Assembly: GCF_014701235.1 (NCBI RefSeq)
Contig: NZ_AP022873.1
Location: 1,674,001-1,738,000 of the forward strand
Length of the DNA: 64,000 bases
DNA from: Dissulfurispira thermophila
GTDB taxonomy: Bacteria > Nitrospirota > Thermodesulfovibrionia > Thermodesulfovibrionales > Dissulfurispiraceae
Direction: 5' to 3'
Shown here: piece after piece, positions 3,326 through 45,665 of the stretch
How positions within the stretch are numbered: position 1 is the stretch's first letter
Layout: each line of letters starts with the position of its first letter
Program-made: the position numbers and the translations under genes
Notes under the pieces: generated by a model
Databases searched by the model: none
What the model saw: the letters and a program-made list of their open reading frames with translations, nothing else
Told to the model about the DNA's origin: nothing

Positions 3326-3769
3326 TTGTCGATTCGAGATAAATTGGCAGCGATTTTCAGTATTAAGGATTCACCAAAAAAGATAGCAATATCCTTTGCA
3401 GTTGGGGTCTTTATCGGTATGTCGCCGATATTAGGACTGCATACAGCACTGGGTATTGCAGCAGCATGGATTTTTAGGCTTAATAAATTTGTGACCATTA
3501 TCGGCGTTTATGTGACTAATCCATGGACTATCGTGCCAATATACACATTTGCAACATGGTTTGGTGCAAAACTACTGGGAATAAAAAAAATAATACCCGC
3601 TATTGACTGGAATAATATAAGCTTCAGCTACATCTTAAATGAAATGGGGCATCTTTTATTGCCATTTGTCTTTGGAAGCACCTTACTCGGTCTTTTATCT
3701 GCAATAGCAGGCTATATAATAATCTATCAGGCAGTAATAAGAAGTAAACAGGAGCAAAAAGTTGACTAA
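3326..3769 (+). CDS. DUF2062 family inner-membrane protein
   Basis: This 147-residue protein carries the DUF2062 pattern: a basic start (MSIRDKLAAIF), a Gly-rich hydrophobic stretch FAVGVFIGMSPILGLHTALG, then TNPWTIVPIY and two further hydrophobic segments, so about three membrane spans. The start is TTG. It overlaps rimO by 8 bp and is probably co-transcribed with it and with thiL. The molecular function of DUF2062 is not established; some relatives are fused to glycosyltransferases. Confidence 0.85.
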   Translation: MSIRDKLAAIFSIKDSPKKIAISFAVGVFIGMSPILGLHTALGIAAAWIFRLNKFVTIIGVYVTNPWTIVPIYTFATWFGAKLLGIKKIIPAIDWNNISFSYILNEMGHLLLPFVFGSTLLGLLSAIAGYIIIYQAVIRSKQEQKVD

Positions 3770-5123
3770 AATTAACATCACAACCCTCGGCTGTCCGAAA
3801 AATATTGTTGATTCAGGACATCTGGCAAGAAGATTTGCATCAGAAAGATTTCTTTATGTGGATAATCCAAACAATGCTGACATTATCCTCATAAATACAT
3901 GCGGATTTATAAGAGATGCAAAGGAAGAATCCATAGAAGAGATACTAAAGCTTTCGAAGTTCAAAACCCAAAGTTCAAAAAGACTTATTGTCTTTGGGTG
4001 TCTTGCTAAGAGATACAAAGATGAACTCGTAAAAGAAATTCCGGAAATAGATGCGATCTTCGGGGTTGGAGAAGATAGCAGCATAATCGAATACTGTAAA
4101 GGTTTGGCAAGAGGCGAAAGACAAAATACAAAAGACAAAAAACAAAGTGCCTTTAGCCATGATCCTTTAACCATTAGCCATCCTCTATCTTATCGCCCAT
4201 CATCTATCGCCTCGTCTTATGCCTATCTCAAAATCGCTGAGGGATGTGATAAAAAATGTACATTCTGTGTTATACCATCCATCAGAGGAAGATTCAGAAG
4301 CATTCAGCCTGAAAAAATATTGAAAGAAGCAAGGGAACATATCAAGAACGGCATCAGAGAGTTGATAATTGTTGCTCAGGATATTACAAAATACGGAAAG
4401 GAATTTGAAAACTACAACCTTGTTTCTCTTCTTAAGGACATTGCTTCAATAAAAGGTGATTTCCGCATCAGACTCCTGTATCTTTATCCAACAGAGATAA
4501 CCGACGAATTACTGGAGCTTATAGCAAAAGAAGAAAAAATACAGAAATACCTCGATATACCACTTCAACATTCAGAAGATAAAATACTTCGAGCAATGGG
4601 TAGGAGAGGGACAAGAAGAGAGTACATAAAACTCATAAGAAATATCAGGCGCACAATCCCAGGGGTTGCCCTCAGAACCACATTCATACTGGGCTTTCCT
4701 GGCGAGACAGAAGAAGATTTTTACGGACTTGCTGATTTTATTGAAGAGATAAGATTCGATAGACTTGGGGTATTTAAATACTCAAGGGAAGAGGGGACAG
4801 TTGCTTCAAAATTAAAAGGACAAGTGCCAGAGAAGCTTAAAAATAGAAGGCTTGATGAAATAATGAGGAGGCAATCGCTTATATCTCTCGAAAAAAATAA
4901 AGAGCTTATAGGTAAAAGGTACGAGGCTATTATAGATGAAATAGATGACAATTTCGCTATTGCAAGGCTCTATTCTCATGCCCCTGAAATAGATGGGGTC
5001 GTGATCATAGAGAAGATAAAAGATAGAAGTCAGAAGTCAGAAATACGGATTGGAGACCTTGTGACTGTCGAGATCGTAGATGCCTTTGACTATGACTTGA
5101 AAGCTATCCTGACTCCTGAATAA
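3762..5123 (+). CDS. rimO: Ribosomal protein S12 methylthiotransferase RimO
   Basis: RimO is a radical-SAM enzyme that adds a methylthio group to an aspartate of ribosomal protein S12. The N-terminal MTTase domain begins TTLGCPKNIVDSGHL and holds its three cluster cysteines in GCPKN, NTCGFI and FGCLAKRY. The radical-SAM motif is CDKKCTFC, and a TRAM domain follows at the C-terminus. Between the first domain and the radical-SAM motif lies an unusual low-complexity linker, about residues 115-150 (QNTKDKKQSAFSHDPLTIS...), encoded by imperfect repeats. The start is TTG, 8 bp inside the upstream gene. The close paralogue MiaB is less likely given the GCPKN motif. Confidence 0.93.
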   Translation: MTKINITTLGCPKNIVDSGHLARRFASERFLYVDNPNNADIILINTCGFIRDAKEESIEEILKLSKFKTQSSKRLIVFGCLAKRYKDELVKEIPEIDAIFGVGEDSSIIEYCKGLARGERQNTKDKKQSAFSHDPLTISHPLSYRPSSIASSYAYLKIAEGCDKKCTFCVIPSIRGRFRSIQPEKILKEAREHIKNGIRELIIVAQDITKYGKEFENYNLVSLLKDIASIKGDFRIRLLYLYPTEITDELLELIAKEEKIQKYLDIPLQHSEDKILRAMGRRGTRREYIKLIRNIRRTIPGVALRTTFILGFPGETEEDFYGLADFIEEIRFDRLGVFKYSREEGTVASKLKGQVPEKLKNRRLDEIMRRQSLISLEKNKELIGKRYEAIIDEIDDNFAIARLYSHAPEIDGVVIIEKIKDRSQKSEIRIGDLVTVEIVDAFDYDLKAILTPE

Positions 5124-10722: not shown

Positions 10723-11337
10723 ATGCTGCTCTACTGCTCTACTGCCCTACTGCTCTACTGCAATTTCTGTTTTGCTTCACAGGTAGATGATGAAGTTGCA
10801 AGAATCCAGAAGGCATATGAGAACATAAAAGATATTAAGGGGAGTTTTATTCAGAAAAGCTATATCAAAGACCTAAAAAGGACGGATACTTATAAAGGTC
10901 AATTCTTTATAAAGTCTCCTAAAATGAGATGGGAATACAAAGGAGATAAGCCCCAGATTGTATATATCACTGGCGAAGATATAATAATTTACCAGAAAAA
11001 AGAAAAACAGGCATTCAAGACAAAATTTGACAAGGCAAGCTATGGACAGGCTCCAATAGCCCTTTTAAGTGGACTTGGAGATATAAAAAACGAATTTGAT
11101 GTCTCGGTGAAGTCAGAACAAAAACTTCTATTAAAACCCAAAAAACCTATGGGCAATATAGTCTCTGTTGAAATCACCACATCAAGCGAAGAGTTTCCAA
11201 TAGAATCTCTCTCCATCATTGATGCTTTATCCAACAGGATTGATATTTATCTAAAGGATGTAAAAATCAATACTGAGCTAAAAGACAGGCTTTTTGAATT
11301 CTCTCCTCCTGAAGGAGTGAATGTCTTACAGCAGTAG
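10723..11337 (+). CDS. lolA: Outer-membrane lipoprotein carrier protein LolA
   Basis: LolA carries lipoproteins across the periplasm from LolCDE to the outer membrane. The mature part matches the family: DEVARIQKAYENIKDIKGSFIQKS, then GQFFIKSPKMRWEYKG, and repeated beta strands. I place the start at the ATG at 10723, which gives a short signal peptide (MLLYCSTALLLYCNFCFASQ). The open frame extends back to 10555, but that part runs through an inverted-repeat element and has no LolA similarity. The signal peptide is encoded by tandem CTACTGCTC-type 9-mers, which suggests repeat DNA was recruited as a secretion signal. Confidence 0.85.
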   Translation: MLLYCSTALLLYCNFCFASQVDDEVARIQKAYENIKDIKGSFIQKSYIKDLKRTDTYKGQFFIKSPKMRWEYKGDKPQIVYITGEDIIIYQKKEKQAFKTKFDKASYGQAPIALLSGLGDIKNEFDVSVKSEQKLLLKPKKPMGNIVSVEITTSSEEFPIESLSIIDALSNRIDIYLKDVKINTELKDRLFEFSPPEGVNVLQQ

Positions 11338-20016: not shown

Positions 20017-20796
20017 ATGAAGACAGCCCTTACAATAGCGGGATCAGACCCAACATGTGGAGCCGGATTGCAAGCAGATATCAGGGTTTTCAACCACTTT
20101 GGAGTTTACGGCATTTCTGCAGTCTCTGCACTTACAGCGCAGAATACTTATGAGATGAACGTTATTTTAAAAATTGATGGCAAATTTTTAGAAACCCAAC
20201 TTAATACCCTTATAAGTGACATTAGACCTAATGCATTAAAAACAGGGATGCTTTTTTCAATAGATATTGTAAAGGCAGTAGCAAAAATCATAAAAGGATA
20301 TGACCTCGAAAACTTAGTAATAGACCCTGTGACCATATCCTCCACAGGTATGAGCATGATGGAAAATGGTGTCCTTGATGCACTCAAAGAAGGGCTTTTT
20401 CCCCTTGCAAAGGTCATAACACCCAATATTTATGAGGCAACTGCCATTTCAGGAATAAGCATAATAAATGAAAAAGACATGGAAATGGCTGCAATAGAAT
20501 TAAAAAAATTAGGACCTGATATAGTAATCATAACCGGAGGGCATTTCGAGGGACTCAAAAATAAGGGAGAAACATTAGACTTAATATATGACGGAGAAAA
20601 ATTTCATCGCCTAATTGGCAAAAGGAGAAAAGGTGAATATCATGGGACAGGCTGTGCATTTTCTGCAGCAATAACTGCCTGCCTTGCAAAGGGCATGTCT
20701 GTTATAGATGCTGTTAGAAAGGCAAAGGAGTTTGTAGATATTGCTATAAAAAATGCATATAGATTAGGAAAAGGCATGAGGCTATTAAATGTCTAA
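20017..20796 (+). CDS. thiD: Hydroxymethylpyrimidine/phosphomethylpyrimidine kinase ThiD
   Basis: ThiD phosphorylates HMP and HMP-P for thiamine synthesis. The start MKTALTIAGSDPTCGAGLQADIRVF is the family N-terminus, with GAGLQADI binding the substrate. The ribokinase-fold C-terminal signature is YHGTGCAFSAAITACLAKG. Seven extra codons upstream (from 19996) cover the promoter and are not used in my view. It overlaps radA by 8 bp. Confidence 0.94.
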   Translation: MKTALTIAGSDPTCGAGLQADIRVFNHFGVYGISAVSALTAQNTYEMNVILKIDGKFLETQLNTLISDIRPNALKTGMLFSIDIVKAVAKIIKGYDLENLVIDPVTISSTGMSMMENGVLDALKEGLFPLAKVITPNIYEATAISGISIINEKDMEMAAIELKKLGPDIVIITGGHFEGLKNKGETLDLIYDGEKFHRLIGKRRKGEYHGTGCAFSAAITACLAKGMSVIDAVRKAKEFVDIAIKNAYRLGKGMRLLNV

Positions 20797-22177
20797 GATA
20801 AAAACTGTTTTTCAATGTCAGGCATGTGGGTATGCAAGTCCAAAATGGCTTGGTAAATGTCCTGATTGCGGTGCATGGAATAGTTTTTCAGAGGAAAAAC
20901 AGAGTCCAATATCTTTGAAATCCTTCGCTGTAGCAGAGCCGCAGTGTTTGAGCAAAATCATAGGCGGTAAAGAAAAAAGGACTCCAATAGGAATAAACGA
21001 GTTCGATAGAGTATTAGGCGGAGGACTTGTAAACGGTGCAATAATACTCATAGGCGGTGACCCGGGTATCGGAAAATCAACCCTATTGCTTCAAGCAGTA
21101 GCAAAGATAACAAAAGACAAAGAAAAGGCAACACCCCACAGTCCACAGAAGACAAAAGACAAAACTGTTTTATATGTCTCTGGCGAAGAGTCCCCAGAGC
21201 AGATAAAATTACGCGCAGAGCGTCTTTCAATAAACTCTGACAATATCTTGCTCTTGTCAGAAACACTGGTTGAGAATATCATAAAGACTGCCGAGGATTT
21301 AAAACCTGCGGCATTAGTTGTTGACTCTATACAGACCATTTACACAGAAGAACTCACATCAGCACCCGGCTCTGTTGGACAGATTAGAGAGTCTGCAGCA
21401 AAGCTCATGTTCTTTGCAAAAAGGTCAGAAATCCCCGTATTCCTGATAGGTCATGTAACAAAAGAAGGAGCTATTGCCGGACCAAGAGTGCTCGAACATC
21501 TTGTTGACACAGTACTTTATTTTGAAGGAGACAGGGGACATCCTTATCGCATATTAAGAACAATCAAAAACAGATTTGGCTCAACAAATGAGATTGGCGT
21601 CTTTGAGATGACAGACGAGGGGCTCATGGAGATAACCAATCCATCTGAATTATTCATGTCAGAAAGACCATTGGGTGTATCAGGCTCAACAGTGATTGCA
21701 ACAATAGAAGGCACACGGCCTTTATTGGTTGAATTACAAGCACTCGTATCACCAACAACCTTTGGCATGCCAAGAAGGACAAGCATGGGAGTTGATTTCA
21801 ATAGGGTAAATTTATTGATAGCAGTCCTCGAGAAAAAGGCAGAAATACACCTTGGTGGAATGGATGTATTTATAAATGTTGTTGGAGGCTTAAAAATATT
21901 CGAACCAGCAGCAGACATAGGTATAATATCAGCCATTGTGTCATCATTCAGAGAAATACCTGTAGATGCAAAGACATTTCTCTTTGGTGAGGTTGGATTA
22001 TCAGGAGAAGTTAGGGCAGTTGCTCATGCAGATGCAAGACTAAAAGAAGCAGCAAAGATAGGCTTCAAAAAGGCAATAATACCCAAAAACAATGCAGAAA
22101 GACTAAAAAATGATCTTGGTTTAACCATTGTTGGAGTTAAAGATGTGGAAGAGGTTATTGAGAATATTAGAATATAA
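20789..22177 (+). CDS. radA: DNA repair protein RadA
   Basis: RadA (Sms) is a RecA-like branch-migration helicase. The N-terminal zinc finger is CQACGYASPKWLGKCPDCG. Walker A is GGDPGIGKST, followed after a short distance by an unusual insert (TKDKEKATPHSPQKTKDK, about residues 108-125) before the conserved VLYVSGEES. The RadA-specific KNRFGSTNEIGVFEM and the Lon-like C-terminal domain with DAKTFLFGEVGLSGEVRAV are present. The insert is encoded by AAAGACAAA-type words, the same style as the inserts in rimO and thiL. Confidence 0.96.
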   Translation: MSKIKTVFQCQACGYASPKWLGKCPDCGAWNSFSEEKQSPISLKSFAVAEPQCLSKIIGGKEKRTPIGINEFDRVLGGGLVNGAIILIGGDPGIGKSTLLLQAVAKITKDKEKATPHSPQKTKDKTVLYVSGEESPEQIKLRAERLSINSDNILLLSETLVENIIKTAEDLKPAALVVDSIQTIYTEELTSAPGSVGQIRESAAKLMFFAKRSEIPVFLIGHVTKEGAIAGPRVLEHLVDTVLYFEGDRGHPYRILRTIKNRFGSTNEIGVFEMTDEGLMEITNPSELFMSERPLGVSGSTVIATIEGTRPLLVELQALVSPTTFGMPRRTSMGVDFNRVNLLIAVLEKKAEIHLGGMDVFINVVGGLKIFEPAADIGIISAIVSSFREIPVDAKTFLFGEVGLSGEVRAVAHADARLKEAAKIGFKKAIIPKNNAERLKNDLGLTIVGVKDVEEVIENIRI

Positions 22178-23021
22178 AAGACAGAAGGCAGAAGACAAGA
22201 GACAGATTTTTATAAGGCTAAAGGCTGAAGGCTTAAGGCTGAAGTTATTTTTGATTTTTTACCTTAAGCATTCAGTCTTCAGCCTTCAGCCTATATTCTG
22301 TCTTCTGTTCTCTGCCTTTTATATCCTGTCTTCTGTCTCTTGCACTCCAAAACATGTGGAAACACCCTCTTACGAGGGAATTCCCCTTGAACATGCCCTT
22401 TCAGAGCTTAAAAACATCAAATCCATTGAAGCTATATTATCTGTAGAATATGAGAGAAATAACAATGCAGATGTTAATACAATGAGTGGTGAGGCACTAC
22501 TTAATGTATCAGAAGATAAGCTCAATCTGAGGCTATATTATCTTGGCTTTCTTGCTGGCGAAGTAAACGAAGAGGGAGGCATTATCAAAAGCAAGCCAAA
22601 ATTAGACAAAAACAAAAGCACAATACTTATTGATGGCATTAAAAACAGCTTCTTCTGGTGGAATATAAAAGACTACACACTACAAGAAAAGGGAGACTTG
22701 TATGAATTAAAAAACCCTTTCAGGAAATTACTAATCAGCAAAAAAACATTACTGCCGATCCAGCAGACCATCGAGCTCAATGATGGAGAAGAGTTAAAGA
22801 TATTTTATGATGCACCTAATAAGACAGACAGTAATGAGTCTGCTGCAACAAATAATAAAAAGTCTGATAGCAACCAATTATCGATAGTTAGTAGCCAGAA
22901 CAACTCACCACCTGCTACTCATCACTCATCACTATCATTATGGTATAACTCACGAATGAAGATAGAATTTAAAAACTATATTGTGAAAATAAAGGTAAAA
23001 TCGTATTCGGTTGTGCGATAA
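22128..23021 (+). CDS. Putative DUF4292-type lipoprotein
   Basis: The likely lipobox LSSVSC (Cys about 72) precedes a periplasmic domain that resembles LolB/DUF4292 proteins (IEAILSVEYE, GEALLNVSEDKLNLRLYYLGFLAGEV). The N-region is long and odd: about 35 basic residues followed by a hydrophobic core. Nearly all of this part, 22160-22345, is a hairpin built from the dispersed GGCTGAA/CTTCAGC words. A second low-complexity stretch (SNQLSIVSSQNNSPPATHHSSLS) lies near the C-terminus. The frame overlaps radA by 50 bp and the true start is uncertain. Confidence 0.65.
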   Translation: MLELKMWKRLLRILEYKRQKAEDKRQIFIRLKAEGLRLKLFLIFYLKHSVFSLQPIFCLLFSAFYILSSVSCTPKHVETPSYEGIPLEHALSELKNIKSIEAILSVEYERNNNADVNTMSGEALLNVSEDKLNLRLYYLGFLAGEVNEEGGIIKSKPKLDKNKSTILIDGIKNSFFWWNIKDYTLQEKGDLYELKNPFRKLLISKKTLLPIQQTIELNDGEELKIFYDAPNKTDSNESAATNNKKSDSNQLSIVSSQNNSPPATHHSSLSLWYNSRMKIEFKNYIVKIKVKSYSVVR

Positions 23022-23322
23022 CAAATAAATAGTTAAATTAAACAAATAGTTTAATGGGAAGTAAAAAAGGAAAATTTCCTTAATTCCTGATTATATCAAA
23101 AACTATCGCTCTCTGCCCCCAAAAGTCTACAACTTTCTGAGGACACCATCTGTAGCACTATCGATCTGATATATCCCACATAGTTCAGATGAAAATCGGA
23201 TGATAATAAATGAAAGAGGTAATACTTCCTTTCGGTAATCTCTGAGGCTGCAAGGAGGCTGCAGAAAAGGCTTCAATCCTTTCGAGGAGAAGATAAAGCC
23301 ATTAAGGAAGTTAGTACTGGCA
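23022..23322. other. Degenerate phage/CRISPR boundary region, no intact gene
   Basis: Contains one degenerate CRISPR repeat (23167-23195) and, after it, a broken small frame. MKEVILPFGNL (from 23210) meets a stop, while the neighbouring frame reads EAARRLQKRLQSFRGEDKAIKEVSTGNA up to 23330. A single-base change around 23243 would join them into one short protein. It directly precedes the 50-residue frame at 23323, as small tail-assembly genes do in Mu-like phages. Confidence 0.4.
23167..23195 (-). repeat. Degenerate CRISPR repeat, oldest end of the array
   Basis: ATATCCCACATAGTTCAGATGAAA matches the main repeat except for one A for G and a changed first few bases. It is the leftmost copy, about 24.5 kb from the leader. 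Decay at the leader-distal end is usual for CRISPR arrays. Confidence 0.65.
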
Positions 23323-24665: not shown

Positions 24666-25034
24666 ATGGATAAGCCTGTTGTATTTAGGGATGTAATTAA
24701 CGACCCTGTCGTAATTTCTGAGGAACTTTTTAAAGACCGTTCAAAAGGAGGCTTTAAAGTTCTCAAGGCAGACCGTGAGATATACCTGCTTATGCTTGCA
24801 GATACCATAAAAGACCCTGCCGAGATATGGCTCACATGGGTACAGGGCAAAGACAAAGTAAGGCTCTGTAAAAGATATATAGCTGTATATAAAGACATTA
24901 AGGGCAAGGTTGGCGGCTATGCTGTCTTTGATCTTATAGATGATGTATGGCAGGGAACTACGGCATTTAAGCCTGCAAACATGAAGTACCTTGATTCTAT
25001 GAGAGAAGGGACTTTATTGTATGTCAGAAAGTAA
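24666..25034 (+). pseudogene. MuF-type toxin domain (PBECR2-like nuclease), 5'-truncated
   Basis: The 122 residues resemble the phage-Barnase-EndoU-ColicinE5/D-RelE-like nuclease domain found at the C-terminus of Mu F-like head proteins: FKDRSKGGFKVLKADREIYLLMLADTIKDPAEIWLTW, then KVRLCKRYIAVYKD and WQGTTAF. No head-morphogenesis domain precedes it; the frame runs back into the CRISPR repeat at 24627. I read it as the severed tail of a minor head protein. The family call is from memory of the pattern, so moderate. Confidence 0.6.
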
Positions 25035-25145
25035 GCTTGTATCCAGTCAGCGAATACAAACAAGCATATATAAGAATAGGCTGACTCCCCGCTATATGCC
25101 TCTCTCTGACATTTCTATAATTATTATACCACAAAAAGGAGGATG

Positions 25146-25280
25146 TCAAGACTTGTTTGGCTGTATCTCTATAGCTGGGTTCCCATCGCCATACTGTCCA
25201 TATTTATCAGACTTAGGCGTAGGCTCTTTGCTTGGAGGTGGAGGGATTTGTACAGGTGAGTCCTTTTTCTTTTCAGACAT
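25146..25280 (-). CDS. Small Pro/Lys-rich phage protein
   Basis: From the ATG at 25280 it reads MSEKKKDSPVQIPPPPSKEPTPKSDKYGQYGDGNPAIEIQPNKS, 44 residues, hydrophilic. It starts inside the end of the membrane-protein gene upstream, so the two are probably coupled. No known function. Confidence 0.45.
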   Translation of the reverse strand: MSEKKKDSPVQIPPPPSKEPTPKSDKYGQYGDGNPAIEIQPNKS

Positions 25281-25788
25281 TAAAAAACCTCGCAACGATA
25301 GCCGCGCAAAGACACAAAAAGGAGACAAACAGACATGGAGCTGATATTCTTAATATTCTTACTTTCTTCCTATTGGATTGTATGCAGGTCTCATTAGCCT
25401 CTGAAATGCCGTTTATTAACCCTCCGTATATAGTATGGTATGGTTTGCCTGCCATCAACTGCTCATATGCAAAATCAGCCATATTAATCGGTCTTAACAC
25501 AGAACTATTTACATATCCACGCCCCCACAGCACCCATAAAGACAATGCGCATGACGCCAGGCCAAAGACAATGGCAAAAAGCAAAGCCCATCTTGACCAC
25601 TGCATCAGCCCTATATCTTTAATCAAAAACACGCTTACCGCACCTATTGCAGAAGATGTCCACAGATACGTCCTTGCCACATCTATAATCATGCTGACGC
25701 TCTGGTGTATAACATACCAATGCGATTGCCATGAGGCGTCTAATATCTTAACAAGAGCCTGCTTGTATTCATCATGGTCAAACTGCAT
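25273..25788 (-). CDS. Hypothetical phage membrane protein
   Basis: A 171-residue protein with an N-terminal soluble part (MQFDHDEYKQALVKILDASWQSHWYVIHQ), two hydrophobic segments around residues 45-85 and one at the C-terminus (ISAPCLFVSFLCLCAAIVARFF). It diverges from the gpG fragment 15 bp away. I do not recognise a family; a holin or spanin role cannot be claimed. Confidence 0.5.
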   Translation of the reverse strand: MQFDHDEYKQALVKILDASWQSHWYVIHQSVSMIIDVARTYLWTSSAIGAVSVFLIKDIGLMQWSRWALLFAIVFGLASCALSLWVLWGRGYVNSSVLRPINMADFAYEQLMAGKPYHTIYGGLINGISEANETCIQSNRKKVRILRISAPCLFVSFLCLCAAIVARFFNV

Positions 25789-25802
25789 GGTATAATTATA
25801 AC

Positions 25803-26008
25803 ATGATTAAAATCACAGTTGACAACAAAGAAGTAAAGACGCTGCTTAATAACCTCTCCGCTAAGGTCAAGAACATGCGGCCTGTCATGCGCCAAATCGC
25901 AGGCATCATGCACGATGCTGTTGAGGAAAATTTTGCGCAGGAAGGACGGCCAAAGTGGAAGCCCTCAAAGCGGGCAATGAAGCAGGGAGGGAAAACACTT
26001 CAAGACAC
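25803..26008 (+). pseudogene. Mu gpG-like virion morphogenesis protein, cut by a CRISPR repeat
   Basis: The first 68 residues (MIKITVDNKEVKTLLNNLSAKVKNMRPVMRQIAGIMHDAVEENFAQEGRPKWKPSKRAMKQGGKTLQDT) align with the intact gpG-like gene at 26845. The sequence then changes, without spacing, into a perfect CRISPR repeat at 26009. About 75 C-terminal residues are missing. Confidence 0.8.
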
Positions 26009-26303
26009 CTTTATATCCCACATGGTTCAGATGAAATCCCACATCTTGTCCCAGCTGGCTTTGGCAACCTTACTTTATATCCCACATGGTTCAGATGAAA
26101 TGATATTTGCCCCTGACTGTTGCGATAATATCACGATCGAACTTTATATCCCACATGGTTCAGATGAAATTCATAATGAATAGTAATTTTATTGATCACT
26201 TCATGAAGCTTTATATCCCACATGGTTCAGATGAAATTATGCCCAAAGACTTGAAGAACTCAAGAAAAAAGAAGCTTTATATCCCACATGGTTCAGATGA
26301 AAT
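26009..26303 (-). CRISPR. Five-repeat CRISPR island inside phage DNA
   Basis: Five intact copies of the main 29-nt repeat start at 26009, 26073, 26142, 26209 and 26275, with four ordinary spacers of 35-40 nt. Left of it is the truncated gpG gene; right of it is the upstream region of a Mor-like gene with no spacer-repeat boundary. Same orientation as the main array, so it is a displaced piece of it. Confidence 0.95.
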
Positions 26304-29981: not shown

Positions 29982-30106
29982 CAGCTAAATTTGTTGTAGA
30001 TTGTCAACACATTTGACCCCTTTTATGCAAATAAAATTGACCCCCTTTTGCCGTTAAAAATGGCACTATTTGATTTCTTAACTTTTCTGCCCTTCTTCCA
30101 ATCCAT

Positions 30107-30855
30107 TCAATTTGCCTTCTTCAATTTGTTCTTCAGTCTGTAGCTTTCTCCACTTATATAGAATATGCTTGCATGATGCACAACTCTGTCTATTATGGCT
30201 GAGGCTACAACAGGGTCTTCAAATACCTTTCCCCATTCGTCAAAGTTGTAGTTGCTTGTAAGGATTATTGAGCCTTTTTCGTATCTCATTGAGATGAGTT
30301 GAAACAGGAGATTTGCCTGCTCTCTCGTTATCGGCATGTAGCCCAGTTCATCTATTATCAGCAGGTGGAGCCTTGAGTAAAGAGGAGTCTTTCTACAAGG
30401 TTTCCCTGTCTCTTTGAGAGCATGAGGTCTTCTATGAGTCCCTGGGCTGTCATAAAGAGCACCCTGAGCCTTGCTGTGCATGCCTTTATGGCAAGCCCTA
30501 CGGAGAGATGGGTTTTGCCTTACCCCGGAGGACCGAGGAATATCACATTTGCCTTTTGAGCTATGAATTCAAGGCTGCTGAGCTTTATTACTTCTTTGTC
30601 TCTGAGGCCCGGCTGGAAGCTGAAGTCAAATTCCTCAATGGTCTTTATGTAGGGAAGTCTGCTCTTTGCCATCTTTGCCTTTATTGAGCTTTCTGTCTTC
30701 CTCTTTACCTCTGCCTCAAGTAACAGGGCAAGGTATTCTTCATATCTGAGGTTGCTCTTTGATGCCCTCTCTGAGAGGTCTCTGTAGGCAGTTATCATGC
30801 CTTTGAGCTTCAATGACCTCATGTGACTCTCTATCTGTCTGTTCAGCTCTGTCAT
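30107..30855 (-). pseudogene. istB: IstB helper ATPase, frameshifted
   Basis: IstB is the AAA+ partner that delivers target DNA to the IS21 transposase. The N-terminal part (MTELNRQIESHMRSLKLKGMITAYRDLSERAS...) and the Walker A start GPPG are in one frame. The rest (LHLLIIDELGYMPITREQANLLFQLISMRYEKGSIILTSNYNF) is in another. Comparison with copy 2 shows a misplaced base pair run near 30522 (CTTACCCCGG against CTACCCCGGG) and a one-base difference near 30382. Confidence 0.85.
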
Positions 30856-30906
30856 GCCAGAACCTCCTTTTCCATAACCCTGTATGCTGAAAGGGGTCTC
30901 GTTATG

Positions 30907-32341
30907 TTAATGGATCGTGCAATACAGGGGTTGTTTATGTTCTCTATTAGAGGTTCTCCAGGGTCTTGCTTTTAGAAGCCTCTTTATGCTGTTTTTGTGG
31001 TATGAGTCGCATTCAATGCACTCCTTCATGGCGGCTGTTATGTCCTCGGCAGTGTAAATCTCTGTGAGTTTCAGTATCTCTTCTATATGCCAATACATGT
31101 TGGCACTGACTGTCTTCTTTAAGCCTTCTATGAAGACCTCTCCCTGCTGTTTGAATGCCTCTTTGAATCTTTTAAGAGTTTCAGACCTGTATGCCCCTTT
31201 CCTCTCCCTATATTCCCTGTTGAGCTGTTCATGTTCTGGATATACAGGCCTTTTGTGCCTGTCACTTACCCTTATGTCATGTTCTGCTATGATACTGCCA
31301 TCCATTGAATAGACCTTAAGGGTCTTTCCAAAAAGGGTCTCTATCTTTACCTGCCTGAGACAATGCTTCATGGGCACAGGGTATAATGCACCAGCCCAGC
31401 TTATGTAGCCGTCATTCGTTACGCTCCGTATCTCCTTCGGGAAGATTTCAGCAGGCTCTACCTCAGGTATCGGTCTTAGAAGAGGTTTTTCATCACGCAT
31501 GAACCTCTCTTCAGGGCTCTCTCCGAGGTCACTGTGTGTCCTTTTATTGTATCTTTCTGTAAAGTCATACAGAAGTCCATCAAACCGTGCAATGCCTTCT
31601 ACCTCAAGCCCCTTGAGAAGATGCTCCTGAATGTAATAAAAGGGCCTCTCTACCTTCCCCTTTGTCCTTGCCCGATAGGGTCTGCACGGGACTGTATCAA
31701 TACCATAAAGTCCGCAGAACCTCAAAAACTCATCGTTATACCGAATAACACCGTTGTTGTTGTGAGCAATGACCATCTGTCTGGGATTGTCTATAACAAT
31801 CTCTTCAGCAATGCCCCCAAAATACTCTATTGCACTCGCTATCGCCCTGATTATATCCGCTGTGGTGATGCTTAAGGAACTGCAATAATATTTCTTCCTG
31901 CTGTAGCTTAAGATTATCTCATGGATGTAGACCTTTACAGGTCTGCCATTTACAGGAAGCATCCATTCCTTCCAGTCATACTGCATCTGTTTGCCAGTGG
32001 AGGTCTCTACCCTCGTTGTTGCAGGGTCTTGACCCGTTCTCCTTCCCTTATCCCTGACAGATAACGATGCACAGAGCAAAGAGAGCCTCCGTAGCCCTGT
32101 TCCTTGAGCTCATTGTATATCCTCGTGCCAATGAAGCCCTTTTGAGCATCTCCTTTATCACTTCCTCATAAGGGTCAAGTAGCCTTTCATACTGCCTTGC
32201 TTTGAATTGCGGAGGTTCATCCTTCCTCAGATACTTCCTCACCGTGTTCCTCGATAGCTTCAACTGCCTCGCTATCCCCTTAATGGTCTCACCCTTCTGC
32301 CTTAATACCCTTACCTGCTGCCACTTATACATGCTTATCAC
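30907..32341 (-). pseudogene. istA: IstA transposase, frameshifted
   Basis: The HTH start (IKGIARQLKLSRNTVRKYLRK) is in the frame beginning at 32341. The catalytic core follows in the frame open from 32079: MQYDWKEWM, EIVIDNPRQMV and the Glu in KGKVERPFYYIQ. Between them a third frame carries GFIGTRIYNELKEQGYGG..., so two indels are needed to restore the protein. The first, at an AAAAGGG run, is shared by both copies. Confidence 0.85.
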
Positions 32342-32471
32342 CCCTTCTTCTCCTTTCCCTGTTTATTTGAAAGGAGATTATAGTATTGCAGGGGGTCATT
32401 TTTATATGCCGATCAGGGGTCAATTGTATTTTACGATCTACAATTTGTTGCTGCATCTGCAAAAGCTGCAG

Positions 32472-34202: not shown

Positions 34203-37200
34203 CTTTATATCCCACATGGTTCAGATGAAATCTAATGCACCTATCACAGTGAACAGGAGACGTCCTGCCTTTATATCCCACATGGTTCAGATGAAATCTC
34301 TCATCAGCTTCTTGCAGTCCCTGTAATTGCTCCTTTATATCCCACATGGTTCAGATGAAATTTTTGAAAAGGTATTCTATATTATTAACGAGTGAAGCTT
34401 TATATCCCACATGGTTCAGATGAAATCTCTCTGGACATATCCTGTGCTTTGCCTTTGGGTATCTTTATATCCCACATGGTTCAGATGAAATCTACAGAAT
34501 AGTTCGTTCTATGCTCAAAAGGTAGTTTCTTTATATCCCACATGGTTCAGATGAAATGCAATTCCTCTTTTGCTTTTTCCCAATCTGCTTGGCCTTTATA
34601 TCCCACATGGTTCAGATGAAATTTACTGCTTGAACGCATCTCCTTACAATCCTCTTCCTTTATATCCCACATGGTTCAGATGAAATAGATTATCCTCTGC
34701 TAATGCTGATTGCTTATCCTCCTTTATATCCCACATGGTTCAGATGAAATCTTACACCTATGCCGTGATGTTACCAGTCGATCTTAACTTTATATCCCAC
34801 ATGGTTCAGATGAAATCCCGACAAGTGGGGCGACAAACCAGCTTATTTCGAGCTTTATATCCCACATGGTTCAGATGAAATGCTATGAGACGAGTTGGTA
34901 TGATTACAAGCGTTCCCTTTATATCCCACATGGTTCAGATGAAATCATCTGTCGAGCATTTGTCAATTATTGCAGTTTCAACTTTATATCCCACATGGTT
35001 CAGATGAAATATGTGTTTACTTTTTAGTGATAAAGACTATGCTGTCTTTATATCCCACATGGTTCAGATGAAATATTGCAAAGTCTACAAATCGACGCCT
35101 CGAGACGCTTCTTTATATCCCACATGGTTCAGATGAAATATTTTGAAATTCCTGAAGATGTTATATCTTCTTTTACTTTATATCCCACATGGTTCAGATG
35201 AAATTTTTGATTAAATTTTCTCTTTTTGTGCCTTGTCATTCTTTATATCCCACATGGTTCAGATGAAATGCTTTTTCTTGATTACATTTTTGTTTCTCAT
35301 TGTCTTTATATCCCACATGGTTCAGATGAAATATACCTCCTCCTAACTCTTAATTTTGCCCAGAAATTTCCTTTATATCCCACATGGTTCAGATGAAATT
35401 ACTCGTCGTCGGCATTGCTACATTTGCAATACGTGGCTTTATATCCCACATGGTTCAGATGAAATATACCAACTCGTCTCATAGCCCCAGCCGAAGGAAT
35501 GCTTTATATCCCACATGGTTCAGATGAAATAAATCATCTCTTGAGATATAGCACCATCGTTTTTCCTCTTTATATCCCACATGGTTCAGATGAAATTCAG
35601 CATAGAACGAACTATTCTGTAGCCCGTGATAGCTTTATATCCCACATGGTTCAGATGAAATGTTGTTCGGGAAGGAGCACTTGGGTGTGATACAAACTTT
35701 ATATCCCACATGGTTCAGATGAAATTATGTTAGAAAGAGATTTGTTAGTAAAGGTTTATGAACTTTATATCCCACATGGTTCAGATGAAATGTGTGCTTG
35801 AGGGCATCTGAGACCATCTCTCGTATTGCTTTATATCCCACATGGTTCAGATGAAATAACTGCTCACTCGCATTTATGCAGTGAGCAGTTGACCTTTATA
35901 TCCCACATGGTTCAGATGAAATCCCCATAAGCCCTGTCCCTCCTGTGCCTGTCCTTGGCCTTTATATCCCACATGGTTCAGATGAAATACCCCTTAAGAC
36001 CTGACCCTCCCATGTCCTGCATTGTCTTTATATCCCACATGGTTCAGATGAAATTCACAAAACAAAAAAAATGAAATAAAAAAACATACTTTATATCCCA
36101 CATGGTTCAGATGAAATGATTGCACGAGCTGCCTCTATTACATCTGCAAGCATCTTTATATCCCACATGGTTCAGATGAAATCATATATCTCTATGAGCG
36201 CCTGCATCTGAAGACCACTCTTTATATCCCACATGGTTCAGATGAAATTCAATATTAGTATAGACTTTGCGTTTTTGTCTCAAAGCCTTTATATCCCACA
36301 TGGTTCAGATGAAATTTTAATTCTCTTAATCATAATAACTTAATCCGCACCCCCTTTATATCCCACATGGTTCAGATGAAATTTGATGTATTGCATTGGC
36401 TTGAGAGATTTTCAGACACTTTATATCCCACATGGTTCAGATGAAATTCTAAAATCTCATACTTGCTTAGCAAGGATCTTGCGCTTTATATCCCACATGG
36501 TTCAGATGAAATCAATCTCAGATTTTTACAGCCGAAAGATTTGTCGGACTTTATATCCCACATGGTTCAGATGAAATTTGGCTCTGACGATAGAGATATG
36601 TCTTCAGGCTTAACTTTATATCCCACATGGTTCAGATGAAATCAATTGGGTGTCAACCTCAATTGGCTTCTGACCGGCGCTTTATATCCCACATGGTTCA
36701 GATGAAATAAGGCACGGTGTCCCGATCAACAAAGAATATTGGACTTTATATCCCACATGGTTCAGATGAAATAAAGGGCAAAGTGTTTAAAAAGGAACAG
36801 TTAGCAACTTTATATCCCACATGGTTCAGATGAAATGCTATTATCGATGCACGTCGTGCTTGCACACTTGAACTTTATATCCCACATGGTTCAGATGAAA
36901 TTTCCATAGCAAGTATCATGCCAACCTGTCTTAAAACTTTATATCCCACATGGTTCAGATGAAATTTGATAATGCTGAGAAGATTAACGATTCAAGAAAA
37001 CCTTTATATCCCACATGGTTCAGATGAAATGGGGAGACATGCATTGTCATTAACGGGTCATTACCTATCTTTATATCCCACATGGTTCAGATGAAATGCC
37101 ACATGATTGTGGGCAGTGCTACTGCAAAGGTTTTCTTTATATCCCACATGGTTCAGATGAAATTTGCCATAGTATAAGTATATCATATTAGCTCCTTATG

Positions 37201-40200
37201 AGCTTTATATCCCACATGGTTCAGATGAAATGCAGCGGGGCACTGGCTGCACGGCTTATAGTCGTACTTTATATCCCACATGGTTCAGATGAAATCATAG
37301 TAAATCCTGACAAAGCTGTTCCTGTCAATCCCTTTATATCCCACATGGTTCAGATGAAATATGTGCCTTTTTCTGTTGCCGTGTCAAGTCCTGTCTTTCT
37401 TTATATCCCACATGGTTCAGATGAAATGATATATCATATTAGCTCCTTTTAGCTCCTTATCAACTTTATATCCCACATGGTTCAGATGAAATTTCACAAC
37501 CTCCGCCAGCCCAGAGATAACCACACTCCTTTATATCCCACATGGTTCAGATGAAATGAGATAACCACACTCAGGGCAACAGACACTTTCAAACTTTATA
37601 TCCCACATGGTTCAGATGAAATTTGCCTCCTTTCTTTGTTTTTTATTGCATCCGCACTTTATATCCCACATGGTTCAGATGAAATGAAAACTGGAGATTA
37701 TGCTTGTTCTGCTTGAAAAGTGCCTTTATATCCCACATGGTTCAGATGAAATATGAGCTACCCTGTCAGGAATAACCTTCTCTGCAAGCTTTATATCCCA
37801 CATGGTTCAGATGAAATCTGTCCATGTCGGCACATCCGTATCTGTGAGAGTATCTTTATATCCCACATGGTTCAGATGAAATGTAATTGGGATAATGATA
37901 AATATTACACTTTTTCATACTTTATATCCCACATGGTTCAGATGAAATGATTAATGTTAGAGTGCGTTTTTATAGTCCTCGTGCTTTATATCCCACATGG
38001 TTCAGATGAAATTGCGCGGGATGTATCAAAATCACCCATTCCAAATGTCTTTATATCCCACATGGTTCAGATGAAATTTCATGTGGTAGTAGTGCTTTGC
38101 CCTTGCAATCATTGTCTTTATATCCCACATGGTTCAGATGAAATAAGCCTTGAGGAAAGCATAGACACCAGCACACCAGCCTTTATATCCCACATGGTTC
38201 AGATGAAATGCCAAGCTTGGAGGAGCGAAGGCACGAGCTTGCCTCCTTTATATCCCACATGGTTCAGATGAAATGAGACTGCAATCAGAAAATGTATGTC
38301 ATGAAGTATAACTTTATATCCCACATGGTTCAGATGAAATTCCTTTACTTGCATCAAAAAATCTTTCTATTTCCTTTATATCCCACATGGTTCAGATGAA
38401 ATAGGGCGCAGGAAGGAACAACAGCAAAGGCTTGGAACGCCTTTATATCCCACATGGTTCAGATGAAATCGGGCTATTTGCCTGCTAATGTCGAGCCAGC
38501 AAAACTTTATATCCCACATGGTTCAGATGAAATATCTATTATCAGTTCTGTCTGTATATTTTTTTGTCTTTATATCCCACATGGTTCAGATGAAATATGA
38601 GGCAGATACTACCTCTGAATATGCTGTTGATGCTTTATATCCCACATGGTTCAGATGAAATCTTGGGTGGCTGTCTGATTGGATTATGTTTGTTCTTCCT
38701 TTATATCCCACATGGTTCAGATGAAATCGGCTGGGGCGTTGGCTGCACGGCTTATAGTCGATACTTTATATCCCACATGGTTCAGATGAAATTTATTGCT
38801 GCAGCAACCCCGAGAAGTGCAAGCCCGACCTTTATATCCCACATGGTTCAGATGAAATGCTTTTGCAACATTGCATCACTTGCAAAAGCTGGCTCTTTAT
38901 ATCCCACATGGTTCAGATGAAATAGATGAAAGCGAAACTCAAACAATACCTCGAAGAACTTTATATCCCACATGGTTCAGATGAAATACAGATACCTTAT
39001 CGCTTTCATTGCAAGCTCCATACTTTATATCCCACATGGTTCAGATGAAATAGTTTGGTATGCTTGAAGGATCTTCGACATATACGCCTTTATATCCCAC
39101 ATGGTTCAGATGAAATTTGATGGCGGAGAAGATTTTTTCAACTCCCCTCGGCTTTATATCCCACATGGTTCAGATGAAATTACCCTCGTTGATGTTGAGC
39201 ACTCACTTTTTGCCACTTTATATCCCACATGGTTCAGATGAAATGCTGATGTGTTCACTCTTTTAGTGATAAAGATTACTTTATATCCCACATGGTTCAG
39301 ATGAAATTGTTATATAACAAGTATCATGCCAAGTTGTTTAAAACTTTATATCCCACATGGTTCAGATGAAATAAAGATGGAGGCGTGGGTACTGTCACAG
39401 CCAAAGAGCCTTTATATCCCACATGGTTCAGATGAAATGATGCAAAACAAAGTGAGATTGTATCAATGATGCCGTCTTTATATCCCACATGGTTCAGATG
39501 AAATGACACATAGAGTGGTCGAAGTCAAAGATATACAGACCTTTATATCCCACATGGTTCAGATGAAATTGTTGCATCAAGGATTCTACCGCTATACCCC
39601 CATTGCTTTATATCCCACATGGTTCAGATGAAATCCGCCTCTGCCATCAGGGACAAGCTCATCACAATATGCTTTATATCCCACATGGTTCAGATGAAAT
39701 TTTCCGAACATACTCCGAACAAACGCCGTCCGTGACCTTTATATCCCACATGGTTCAGATGAAATCCGAACATACTCCGAACAAACGCCGTCCACGATTG
39801 GCTTTATATCCCACATGGTTCAGATGAAATAGATTTTAGACCTTGCGAGGAGCATTGGTGACATAGCTTTATATCCCACATGGTTCAGATGAAATCTGAA
39901 ATGGAAATCTCTTTTAACTCTCCTCAACCACCTTTATATCCCACATGGTTCAGATGAAATTTCATTTAGCGGTTCGGGAATCGGTTGGTTATTACCTTTA
40001 TATCCCACATGGTTCAGATGAAATCTCCAGGAACAGTCATAGGCTATGTGCATCCCCACTCTTTATATCCCACATGGTTCAGATGAAATTGATACAGAGA
40101 TGTTTGTTTCTGCACTTCTTCAATGCTTTATATCCCACATGGTTCAGATGAAATCAATCAGGGATGTAAGGACTGATAGCTATGATTTCTCTTTATATCC

Positions 40201-43200
40201 CACATGGTTCAGATGAAATCTTACAGACCTGTTGACCGTTGATAGTCTTGCAGGACTTTATATCCCACATGGTTCAGATGAAATCTCAATGCTTGATAGC
40301 CAAAAATCAGGTATAAAACTCTTTATATCCCACATGGTTCAGATGAAATAAAACTGGAAAGCAGGATATTTGGGATGACCTTATCTTTATATCCCACATG
40401 GTTCAGATGAAATTCTTTCTCTTCTGTCAAAGACAGATGAGAGAGAATCCTTTATATCCCACATGGTTCAGATGAAATATTGCTTGAGATTGATGAGTTT
40501 ACACAAGAGAGGATAGCTTTATATCCCACATGGTTCAGATGAAATATGTCATATGCAATGCAACAGTTTGGGGCACAGTTATACTTTATATCCCACATGG
40601 TTCAGATGAAATAATAGTTGATAATGCGTATTATCGTTATAGTTATCACTTTATATCCCACATGGTTCAGATGAAATCTTTTCGAGTTGATGTCAATACA
40701 ACTGTAAAATCTCCCTTTATATCCCACATGGTTCAGATGAAATTGGCTGGGGCTATGAAACAACATGGTATGATTACAAGCTTTATATCCCACATGGTTC
40801 AGATGAAATTTCCTGATGTTTTGCAAAATTTTCAATATCCTGATACTTTATATCCCACATGGTTCAGATGAAATCAAGCGATGGGCATTCTTGCTTCTGC
40901 GTTTTCAGTGCTTTATATCCCACATGGTTCAGATGAAATAGCAGCAGCGGGGCACTGGCAGCGAGACTTATTGTCTTTATATCCCACATGGTTCAGATGA
41001 AATATGCAAAACAAAGTGAGATTGTATCAATGATGCCGTCTTTATATCCCACATGGTTCAGATGAAATTTATAAATTTGTCAAGGTTGTTCGGGAGTCTG
41101 CACTCTTTATATCCCACATGGTTCAGATGAAATATGCAAAACAAAGTGAGATTGTATCAATGATTCCGTCTTTATATCCCACATGGTTCAGATGAAATAA
41201 CTGCTCACTCGCATTTATGCAGTGAGCAGTTGACCTTTATATCCCACATGGTTCAGATGAAATTTTGACTTGGATAATATACTCGTAGAAAAAACAGAAA
41301 ACTTTATATCCCACATGGTTCAGATGAAATGCGATGTTGTAACGGGAGACGTTGTTAAAGACTTTATAGCTTTATATCCCACATGGTTCAGATGAAATAG
41401 GATTAGAACTAAATGCAAATACAAGCTGGGCTAAACTTTATATCCCACATGGTTCAGATGAAATGAACAGGTTAGAAGTTTATAACGATGCGGTTCTTCA
41501 TCTTTATATCCCACATGGTTCAGATGAAATACAAAGCTGTTCCTGTCAATCCTGATAATACTCAAACCTTTATATCCCACATGGTTCAGATGAAATGGGG
41601 TAGGAGGTAGAAAAATGGGTAGAGGAAAAACCTTTATATCCCACATGGTTCAGATGAAATCCCTGATCCTTTCATGCCTGTCTGACAGGCTGAGCTTTAT
41701 ATCCCACATGGTTCAGATGAAATGTTCCTGTCAATCCTAATGATAATAACACTACTCAAACCTTTATATCCCACATGGTTCAGATGAAATACCGTTACGC
41801 AAAACATCAAGAGCATCTTGTAAAACCCTTTATATCCCACATGGTTCAGATGAAATCAATGAAAATCTTGATTTCGTTTATCGTCATACTTCCTTTATAT
41901 CCCACATGGTTCAGATGAAATACTGCTCACTCGCATTTATGCAGTGAGCAGTTGACACTTTATATCCCACATGGTTCAGATGAAATCAAGGCACGGCTAA
42001 ATTCGTTGCTGCGTCGGCAAAAGCTTTATATCCCACATGGTTCAGATGAAATCGCGATGGCCGCCATACCATACCTCTGTTACTCTATCTTTATATCCCA
42101 CATGGTTCAGATGAAATATGACACAATAGAAATAAAAACAGTCGCAAATGCACCCTTTATATCCCACATGGTTCAGATGAAATACGCATCTGTCGAGCGT
42201 TTGTTAACTATTGTAATTTTAACTTTATATCCCACATGGTTCAGATGAAATACTGCTCACTCGCATTTATGCAGTGAGCAGTTGACACTATATCCCACAT
42301 GGTTCAGATGAAATCATTCGCTAATCTACAAATCGAAGACTCAAGGCGTTTCTTTATATCCCACATGGTTCAGATGAAATGAGGTATTGAGATGTAATAA
42401 TGGAATTTATCCAATCCTTTATATCCCACATGGTTCAGATGAAATGATAGAGCAGAAATATCCTTCCGAGCCTCTGTTTATCTTTATATCCCACATGGTT
42501 CAGATGAAATTTCAGGTGGTGGATGCGTATACCATGTAGGTTTTCACTTTATATCCCACATGGTTCAGATGAAATTTTCTTGGGCGTTGTCTGCGGGGTT
42601 GTCTTTCTTCACTTTATATCCCACATGGTTCAGATGAAATAGATGCTGATAGGTAGAGGGTCTGAAGGAGAAAGCAACTTTATATCCCACATGGTTCAGA
42701 TGAAATCGAACATTTCTGACGGTGTTTGTTCGGAGTATGTTCTTTATATCCCACATGGTTCAGATGAAATCCGATGCGGGGTTTCTGGGCAATTCACTAA
42801 TCGATTTCTTTATATCCCACATGGTTCAGATGAAATCAGGTTTTACAAGATGCTCTTGATACACTTCGCAACTTTATATCCCACATGGTTCAGATGAAAT
42901 CACACTCAAACGGCTTGGTTATCGTATTGTAGAAACTTTATATCCCACATGGTTCAGATGAAATATGAAATCAACGCAAAGATTGCAGAGCTTGACACAA
43001 CTTTATATCCCACATGGTTCAGATGAAATTTCACAACCTCCGCCAGCCCAGAGATAACCACACTCCTTTATATCCCACATGGTTCAGATGAAATTGCAAT
43101 CGCTGCTTGAGTATTAGATTTGTCAGAGTGCTTTATATCCCACATGGTTCAGATGAAATCATCTGTCGAGCATTTGTTAATTATTGCAATTTCAGCTTTA

Positions 43201-43219
43201 TATCCCACATGGTTCAGAT
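34203..43219 (-). CRISPR. Main CRISPR array block, about 138 repeats
   Basis: A 29-nt repeat (plus strand CTTTATATCCC...CAGATGAAAT) recurs every 64-67 nt with spacers of 35-39 nt. Nearly all copies are identical; one at 42288 has lost two T. Read on the minus strand the repeat begins ATTTCATC and ends ATATAAAG, like the AAAG-ending handles of several I-B systems. The cas genes and leader on the right agree with that direction. Count is from spacing, not one by one. The last repeat is cut at 43219 by IS21 copy 2. Confidence 0.97.
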
Positions 43220-43331
43220 TGTAGATTGTCAACACATTTGACCCCTTTTATGCAAATAAAATTGACCCCCTTTTGCCGTTAAAAACGGCACTATTTGATT
43301 TCTTAACTTTTCTGCCCTTCTTCCAATCCAT

Positions 43332-44080
43332 TCAATTTGCCTTCTTCAATTTGTTCTTCAGTCTGTAGCTTTCTCCACTTATATAGAATATGCTTGCATG
43401 ATGCACAACTCTGTCTATTATGGCTGAGGCTACAACAGGGTCTTCAAATACCTTTCCCCATTCGTCAAAGTTGTAGTTGCTTGTAAGGATTATTGAGCCT
43501 TTTTCGTATCTCATTGAGATGAGTTGAAACAGGAGATTTGCCTGCTCTCTCGTTATCGGCATGTAGCCCAGTTCATCTATTATCAGCAGGTGGAGCCTTG
43601 AGTAAAAGAGGAGTCTTTCTACAAGGTTTCCCTGTCTCTTTGAGAGCATGAGGTCTTCTATGAGTCCTGGGCTGTCATAAAGAGCACCCTGAGCCTTGCT
43701 GTGCATGCCTTTATGGCAAGCCCTACGGAGAGATGGGTTTTGCCTACCCCGGGAGGACCGAGGAATATCACATTTGCCTTTTGAGCTATGAATTCAAGGC
43801 TGCTGAGCTTTATTACTTCTTTGTCTCTGAGGCCCGGCTGGAAGCTGAAGTCAAATTCCTCAATGGTCTTTATGTAGGGAAGTCTGCTCTTTGCCATCTT
43901 TGCCTTTATTGAGCTTTCTGTCTTCCTCTTTACCTCTGCCTCAAGTAACAGGGCAAGGTATTCTTCATATCTGAGGTTGCTCTTTGATGCCCTCTCTGAG
44001 AGGTCTCTGTAGGCAGTTATCATGCCTTTGAGCTTCAATGACCTCATGTGACTCTCTATCTGTCTGTTCAGCTCTGTCAT
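43332..44080 (-). pseudogene. istB: IstB, copy 2, frameshifted
   Basis: The N-terminal 140 residues include an intact Walker A ([31 protein letters not shown]). The frame then breaks at 43669, where one G is missing compared with copy 1, and continues as GLIEDLMLSKRQGNLVERLLFYSRLHLLIIDELGYM in the next frame. The defect differs from that in copy 1, so the copies decayed separately. Confidence 0.85.
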
Positions 44081-44171
44081 GCCAGAACCTCCTTTTCCAT
44101 AACCCTGTATGCTGAAAGGGGTCTCGTTATGTTAATGGAGCGTGCAATACAGGGGTTGTTTATGTTCTCTA

Positions 44172-45564: not shown

Positions 45565-45665
45565 CCCTTCTTCTCCTTTCCCTGTTTATTTGAAAGGAGA
45601 TTATAGTATTGCAGGGGGTCATTTTTATATGCCGATCAGGGGTCAATTGTATTTTACGATCTACA

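Follow-up and report, generated by a model that had tools for sequence, protein, structure and literature searches.

A repeat hairpin at the start of a lipoprotein gene

The window, i.e., the whole stretch of 64,000 nucleotides of Dissulfurispira thermophila that we analysed, corresponds to positions 1674001-1738000 of a single contig of 2,370,875 bases. It encodes radA at positions 20789-22177 (an open reading frame with the RadA-type Pfam domains KaiC ATPase, LapB Zn ribbon, and Lon_C). The 3' end of radA overlaps a lipoprotein gene at 22143-23021, and both genes, like the other features of this locus, are on the + strand. In most orthologues of the host family, the overlapping ATG is found at about -34 relative to the radA stop. 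In the window, this ATG lies 6 nt downstream of a GGAG motif resembling a Shine-Dalgarno site (22133-22136), and GGAGT precedes the overlapping ATG in many orthologues too.

The region 22169-22342 consists of two nested inverted repeats of 7-nt words with a T-rich loop at the centre (22248-22259). AAGACAG words face TTCTGTC words in the outer pair, and AAGGCTG words face CTTCAGC words in the inner one. Repeat searches and TRF place the purine-rich outer 5' arm at 22169-22206 (translated as KRQKAEDKRQ), the inner 5' arm at 22214-22247 (IRLKAEGLRLK), the inner 3' arm at 22260-22292 (HSVFSLQP), and the outer 3' arm at 22296-22342 (FCLLFSAFYILSSVS). The inverted-repeat search gave inner arms of 33 nt that are 82% complementary and 12 nt apart (22215-22247 and 22260-22292) and outer arms of 29 nt that are 83% complementary (22169-22197 and 22299-22327); TRF reported period-7 arrays at 22178-22206, 22214-22244, 22262-22292, and 22296-22338. 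In the segment that separates the radA stop from the Cys codon, none of 300 dinucleotide shuffles reached the tandem score, and none reached the inverted score. The predicted RNA fold of 22165-22350 has an energy of -72.2 kcal/mol, for a shuffle mean of -40.6 (z -8.3). The facing runs and the T-rich loop quoted in an earlier note on this DNA are thus present, as nested inverted arrays of 7-mers. A search against Rfam gave 14 matches to microRNA models, all far under the gathering scores, which we took as chance hairpin matches.

When translated from the ATG at 22143, inside radA, the hairpin DNA makes up most of a predicted signal peptide of 66 codons (22143-22340, MWKRLLRILEYKRQKAEDKRQIFIRLKAEGLRLKLFLIFYLKHSVFSLQPIFCLLFSAFYILSSVS); the translation up to the mature part is MWKRLLRILEYKRQKAEDKRQIFIRLKAEGLRLKLFLIFYLKHSVFSLQPIFCLLFSAFYILSSVSC. 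The TGC codon of the lipobox Cys, at the end of LSSVSC, is at 22341-22343, and SCAP is found at the equivalent place in three congeners. Bacterial lipoprotein signals have a basic n-region, an uncharged hydrophobic h-region, and a lipobox ending in Cys. The predicted signal has this composition (basic n-region MWKRLL..., FCLLFSAFYILSSVSC), with an unusually long n-region. The earlier note took the hairpin as the start of the gene. It is part of the coding sequence, as translated, but the ATG and the GGAG motif are both upstream of it. A standard signal from a downstream start was not found either: past the radA stop, the sole in-frame ATG, GTG, or TTG codon before the Cys (TTG 22251) would still give a repeat-coded core.

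The protein had been named as a member of DUF4292, which we could not confirm. It has no match in Pfam or NCBIfam, and there was no DUF4292 match among five relatives scanned with Pfam. For relatives, all family matches were sub-threshold, and they included LolB (L024, E 0.0034) and LolA_like (L030, E 0.0058; L024, E 0.029).

The lipoprotein gene also has a second inserted stretch near the C-terminus (22830-22940, around NQLSIVSSQNNSPPATHHSSLSLWY), with ACTCATC 7-mers at 22917-22937; seven relatives align to the protein in two pieces, omitting query residues ~163 to ~195-200. Just past the gene, at 23160-23200, there is a degenerate copy of a CRISPR-like repeat, CTTTATATCCCACATGGTTCAGATGAAAT, that forms many short arrays at 34853-46981. 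Phage-type genes follow soon after (24666-26183), with a PBECR2 nuclease domain and a member of the Phage_tail_S family. Further away, matching features recur at a distance of ~13.2 kb in the regions 30106-32438 and 43331-45661, which hints at a long direct duplication, and 63370-63890 is a repeat array with a unit of ~69 nt (GTCGCAGTCCCTTCTAAATGAGGTCTTCTTTCC).

Orthologues keep the reading frame and differ in their words

Searching 60 genomes, the host among them, with the mature part of the lipoprotein gave orthologues in 48 and none in the other 12. The upstream DNA was taken for all 48 loci. Of these, 44 had a measurable spacer (radA stop to Cys codon), 26 from the host family and 18 from outside, after dropping three loci that failed the lipobox pattern and one without radA. 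Calling arrays of periods 6-9 at p<=0.01 by shuffling, we found them in 16 of the 26 host-family spacers, or 15 if the T-rich L032 is set aside. Outside the family, 2 of the 18 have them (L024 and L026, both from family f2), the remaining 16 being array-free. Among these 18 loci, 11 have compact array-free signals of 19-28 residues, most of which start in the radA overlap (e.g., MLKNLLKLFSISIFLVFFSC in L030); the other seven signals are longer, and two of the seven have arrays. Because these 11 orthologues are compact and array-free, the repeat-built core of the window lipoprotein looks derived. Several orthologues have a long signal and no detected array (L013, L016, L018, L022, L028, L029, L033, L042, L043), and signal length alone is therefore no proof of repeats.

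The words differ even between close relatives. Among four congeners, the window has AAGACAG with AAGGCTG, L003 has CTGGCTA with GGTCAGG, L004 has TACTGCT, and L002 has a weaker 9-nt pattern. Other orthologues show CATTACTC, ACAGAAG, AAGTCAG, GATACAG, and others. The n-region MWKRLLRILEY corresponds to the part overlapping radA and is common to relatives; none of the 48 loci keeps the core while lacking the repeats. The earlier note proposed that one repeat insertion replaced the original signal. The derived look of the core, in frame with radA, fits part of this proposal, but a single replacement of the whole signal does not: the n-region is shared, the core words change from species to species, and the pattern recurs in BamA, LolA, LptD, and other proteins.

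The length of the spacer is 1 mod 3 in 42 of the 44 measured loci, and the two exceptions (L025 and L027) lack a start codon within the overlap with radA. All 18 loci with arrays of period 6-9 at p<=0.01, including the T-rich L032, have this length class. Since the array units are of 7 and 8 nt and the frame is nevertheless kept, this speaks for the translation of the arrays. Over the 130 nt that precede the mature part, tandem repeats of period 7 or 8 reached p<0.01 in 15 of the 48 lipoprotein loci (13 of the 26 in the family, L002 not being one of them), for 0/48 in each of two control stretches, and inverted repeats reached p<0.01 in 6/48. Pooling the controls of the lipoprotein, LolA, and BamA loci (the last two described below), there were 0/214 tandem and 2/214 inverted cases.

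These data bear on the hypothesis that the hairpin is an untranslated intergenic element, such as a terminator, an attenuator, or a REP-like sequence, that the protein starts downstream, and that the open frame is accidental. The strength of the RNA hairpin would fit such an element, as would the in-frame GTG at 22356, after the Cys codon, and the fact that 22 of the 75 arrays of our genome sample (see below) are intergenic. Yet, the frame relative to radA is kept in nearly all measured orthologues in spite of the 7-/8-nt units. The GGAG motif and the ATG upstream, the SC[AT]P that ends the spacer in the four congeners, and the lack of any terminator-like site in 21900-22600 argue in the same direction, and we regard an untranslated element as improbable.

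Repeat-built signals in other exported proteins

A second repeat-built export signal is predicted in the window, at 10723-10776 on the + strand, in a gene for LolA (Pfam LolA, E 7.2e-23). Its core, MLLYCSTALLLYCNFCFA, is coded by an array of the 8-mer CTGCTCTA (10726-10761) that has no hairpin partner. Three LolA congeners have words of the AGGCAAA and CCTTTTGCC types at the signal site. Of 40 genomes, 38 had a match to LolA and 36 a match to BamA; we analysed 30 loci of each among the matches listed, one BamA locus being then excluded for a run of N (n=29). Tandem repeats of period 7 or 8 (p<0.01) were found in the signals of 10/30 listed LolA loci (controls 0/60) and 6/29 listed BamA loci (controls 0/58). 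Inverted repeats (p<0.01) were found in 1/30 and 6/29 of these loci, respectively, and in none of the LolA and BamA controls.

In 864 kb of the host genome, visual inspection singled out ten exported proteins whose signal contains an array, nine from the array scan and one from the scan for inverted pairs. They are the window lipoprotein, LolA, BamA, LptD, an outer-membrane efflux protein, an AMIN/Amidase_3 amidase, an SLT-LysM protein, a TPR protein, an HlyD-type lipoprotein, and the lipoprotein of L057, which is the one from the pair scan (MNKTGKRQWAIGNRLK...LLPIAFCLFLISC). For the nine from the array scan, names are from Pfam, except for the window lipoprotein; the near-pure-T arrays of L136 and L151 were excluded. 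A rough signal predictor recovered 8 of the 10. Some N-termini of array-bearing proteins may start downstream of the arrays, e.g., that of a TolC-like protein with a possible start at MSLALALILASPVFA.

Arrays across the genome

The sample of 864 kb (36% of the host genome) contains 75 arrays of period 7 or 8 with a score of at least 12, which we assigned to genes called with a simple hexamer model: 22 are intergenic, 19 are in the first 80 codons, 32 are internal, and two are C-terminal. Their density is highest in intergenic DNA (0.26 per kb) and lower in the first 80 codons (0.09) and in internal regions (0.056). No array was left after shuffling the first 464 kb in blocks of 60 bases.

The words themselves are dispersed. 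There are 23 matches to CTTCAGCCTTCAGCC in genome G000, against none for the reversed control, and eight matches to TACTGCTTACTGCTT in G001, against none in G000. A search of 295 genomes of the phylum for three copies of CTTCTGT gave 38 matches in 14 of them; the reversed control is uninformative here, because reversing this word only rotates it. By eye, among 12 listed loci (one per genome), four signal-like N-termini (L179, L180, L186, L187) have CTTCTGT in the pyrimidine sense. The word is purine-sense in the internal inserts of four other loci (L182-L185, where the shorter opposite frames of L183 and L184 were taken as shadows) and in the n-region of L181, with three loci left unlabelled (L188-L190). 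Two of them overlap our earlier counts, since L184 is from the host genome and L186 is the BamA of G005.

Arrays are also found within soluble enzymes. The RimO-type protein at 3762-5123 of the window has two repeat-derived inserts, RGERQNTKDKKQ and KIKDRSQKSE, that differ from one relative to another in both length and sequence (alignment of 21 of 22, L169 being left out); several of the relatives have similar words. As a separate observation, L137 (8520-9959) encodes an AroA-like enzyme, judging from its sequence, with two repeat hairpins within the coding sequence.

Strand use and polarity of the arrays

The sense strand of the arrays depends on their place in the protein. The hydrophobic strand is sense in 8/8 signal-core arrays, a figure that is partly circular because the core label was assigned by eye. 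In internal arrays, the hydrophilic strand is sense in 24 of 31 cases (the 32nd is the signal core of the amidase), and the GRAVY values of the two groups differ (Mann-Whitney, p 1e-6).

Inverted pairs with array arms also have a polarity: 25 are purine-first, four pyrimidine-first, and six neutral. Pairs in genes are purine-first rather than pyrimidine-first by 18 to 4, against 30 to 56 for plain inverted repeats (p 9e-5). Between genes, the difference between array pairs (20 purine-first, two pyrimidine-first, 11 neutral) and plain inverted repeats (32, 13, and 57, respectively) is weak (Fisher, p 0.12), so that the claim of a polarity rests on the pairs in genes.

We also considered that a purine-first hairpin might be a ready-made signal. 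When 13 intergenic purine-first hairpins were read in six frames each, 2/78 readings were charged then hydrophobic, against 79/2340 in random intergenic sequences and 87/2340 in shuffled hairpins, and swapping the halves of the hairpins gave 0/78. The hairpins are also open throughout less often (9/78 vs 536/2340). We thus rejected this idea: hairpins are not ready-made signals, and selection must therefore filter the word, the frame, and the stops.

Could the arrays be a defined mobile palindromic element that a transposase inserts, of the type of MITEs or Rickettsia palindromic elements? They are dispersed, partly paired, and in frame within genes too, as such an element might be. However, we saw no constant sequence beyond the 7-8-nt words, the congeners differ in their words at one and the same site, and the length varies, which makes this origin unlikely. 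Another possibility is that the replication machinery slipped locally within a T-rich core and that the upstream complement is coincidental. This would fit the pyrimidine richness of hydrophobic codons, the weak tandem scores of some signal regions (matched by 30/300 shuffles in L013 and 47/300 in L016), and the description of heptanucleotides, in the available text of PMC4679880, as the most abundant of the 5-11-nt repeats in most surveyed genomes, with polymerase slippage as the proposed cause. We consider it very unlikely, since the same words form arrays elsewhere in the genome (both of the two words tested), mostly with the opposite strand sense inside other proteins and also as paired arms, and the tandem controls from the same loci are all negative.

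Comparison with known repeats

Several described systems share part of these traits, as far as the accessible portions of the sources go. Rickettsia palindromic elements are sequences of ~150 bp, with a conserved peptide, found in frame in many unrelated protein genes (as summarised in PMC10969869). The repeats described here are likewise palindromic and in frame in protein genes, but there is no conserved element or peptide of that size; instead, they have 7-8-nt words and variable arms, with the hydrophobic strand in signal cores. Geobacter metallireducens has tandem heptamers, of which the MTYCTGA class occurs in opposite-strand pairs and the GGGACCG type within and between genes, interpreted as regulator sites or RNA elements (PMC2700814). 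Our tandem heptamers also form inverted pairs. Their words, such as AAGGCTG and AAGACAG, differ from the Geobacter consensus (TTCTGTC is near MTYCTGA, not equal), and the available description makes no mention of signal peptides. Enterobacterial RU repeats, e.g., RU-2 in Yersinia YPO1552, occur in predicted signal peptides (PMC2759123); these are a few predicted cases involving fixed elements of 103-168 bp, whereas here short species-specific words recur in core envelope proteins.

More distant likenesses are found, in the parts of the sources available, with PARCEL (PMC2996958), which is palindromic, translated, repeated DNA but has 75-nt units encoding a 25-residue amphipathic domain, not signals; with the TAACTGA heptamers of marine Beggiatoaceae (PMC4679880), which are short arrays near gene starts but involve one word, nearly all direct and mostly intergenic, with 10 sets within ORFs in reverse orientation; and with the tandem repeats of Bacillus (PMC8161180), which have a constant unit size and variable, species-specific sequences but units of 20-21 or 52 nt. 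Translated palindromes, paired tandem heptamers, heptamers in and between genes, and repeats in predicted signals are thus already in print, judging from these partial texts. Among the papers listed by word matching in one collection of the open literature, we found no description of recurrent species-by-species rewriting of signals by 7-8-nt arrays in core envelope proteins.

Turnover of export signals

We conclude that the hairpin is probably a repeat-derived, translated, and most likely functional predicted signal, an example of how export signals would be turned over repeatedly through dispersed 7-/8-nt arrays. At the sequence level, this reading draws on the arrays, the conservation of the frame, the differences in words between species, and the strand bias. 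The signals would function in export, and the arrays would have entered by insertion or copying, followed by selection. The earlier note was broadly right, yet the phenomenon is recurrent and genome-wide.

In the model we favour, the host and its relatives would carry dispersed families of 7-/8-nt tandem arrays, part of them as inverted pairs with the purine-rich arm first. The arrays would persist at tolerant sites, namely in intergenic spacers, in signal peptides, and within some proteins, where they probably occupy loops. At the lipoprotein locus, the reading frame crosses the spacer because the start codon is inside radA, and an array would therefore be retained only when its length leaves the frame intact and the strand read as sense is suitable, i.e., if the charged n-region is kept and a hydrophobic core follows. 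Pyrimidine-rich words such as CTTCTGT may act as the core, giving LLSSVFC in every frame (the frames read alike because each 7-nt copy shifts the frame), and the complement, which reads TEDRRQK, may make the charged part.

More speculatively, an active process might write species-specific words of 7-8 nt, often as purine-first inverted pairs, at tolerant sites, and so remake the signals that export core envelope proteins (BamA, LptD, LolA, lipoproteins), a possibility that we hold with much less confidence. If this is true, signal peptides would be a renewable product of repeat DNA instead of inherited sequence, which raises the question of what generates the words. Annotators should be aware that repeats can be the source of N-termini and inserts in these genomes. 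In this group of little-known bacteria, short repeated words, often in hairpins, appear to have rewritten the export tags of outer-membrane proteins again and again, which would be an unusual instance of repeat DNA turning into protein. This would be a natural repeated experiment in the origin of new export signals: one protein has unrelated repeat-made signals in related species, as expected if signals need little beyond charge followed by hydrophobicity.
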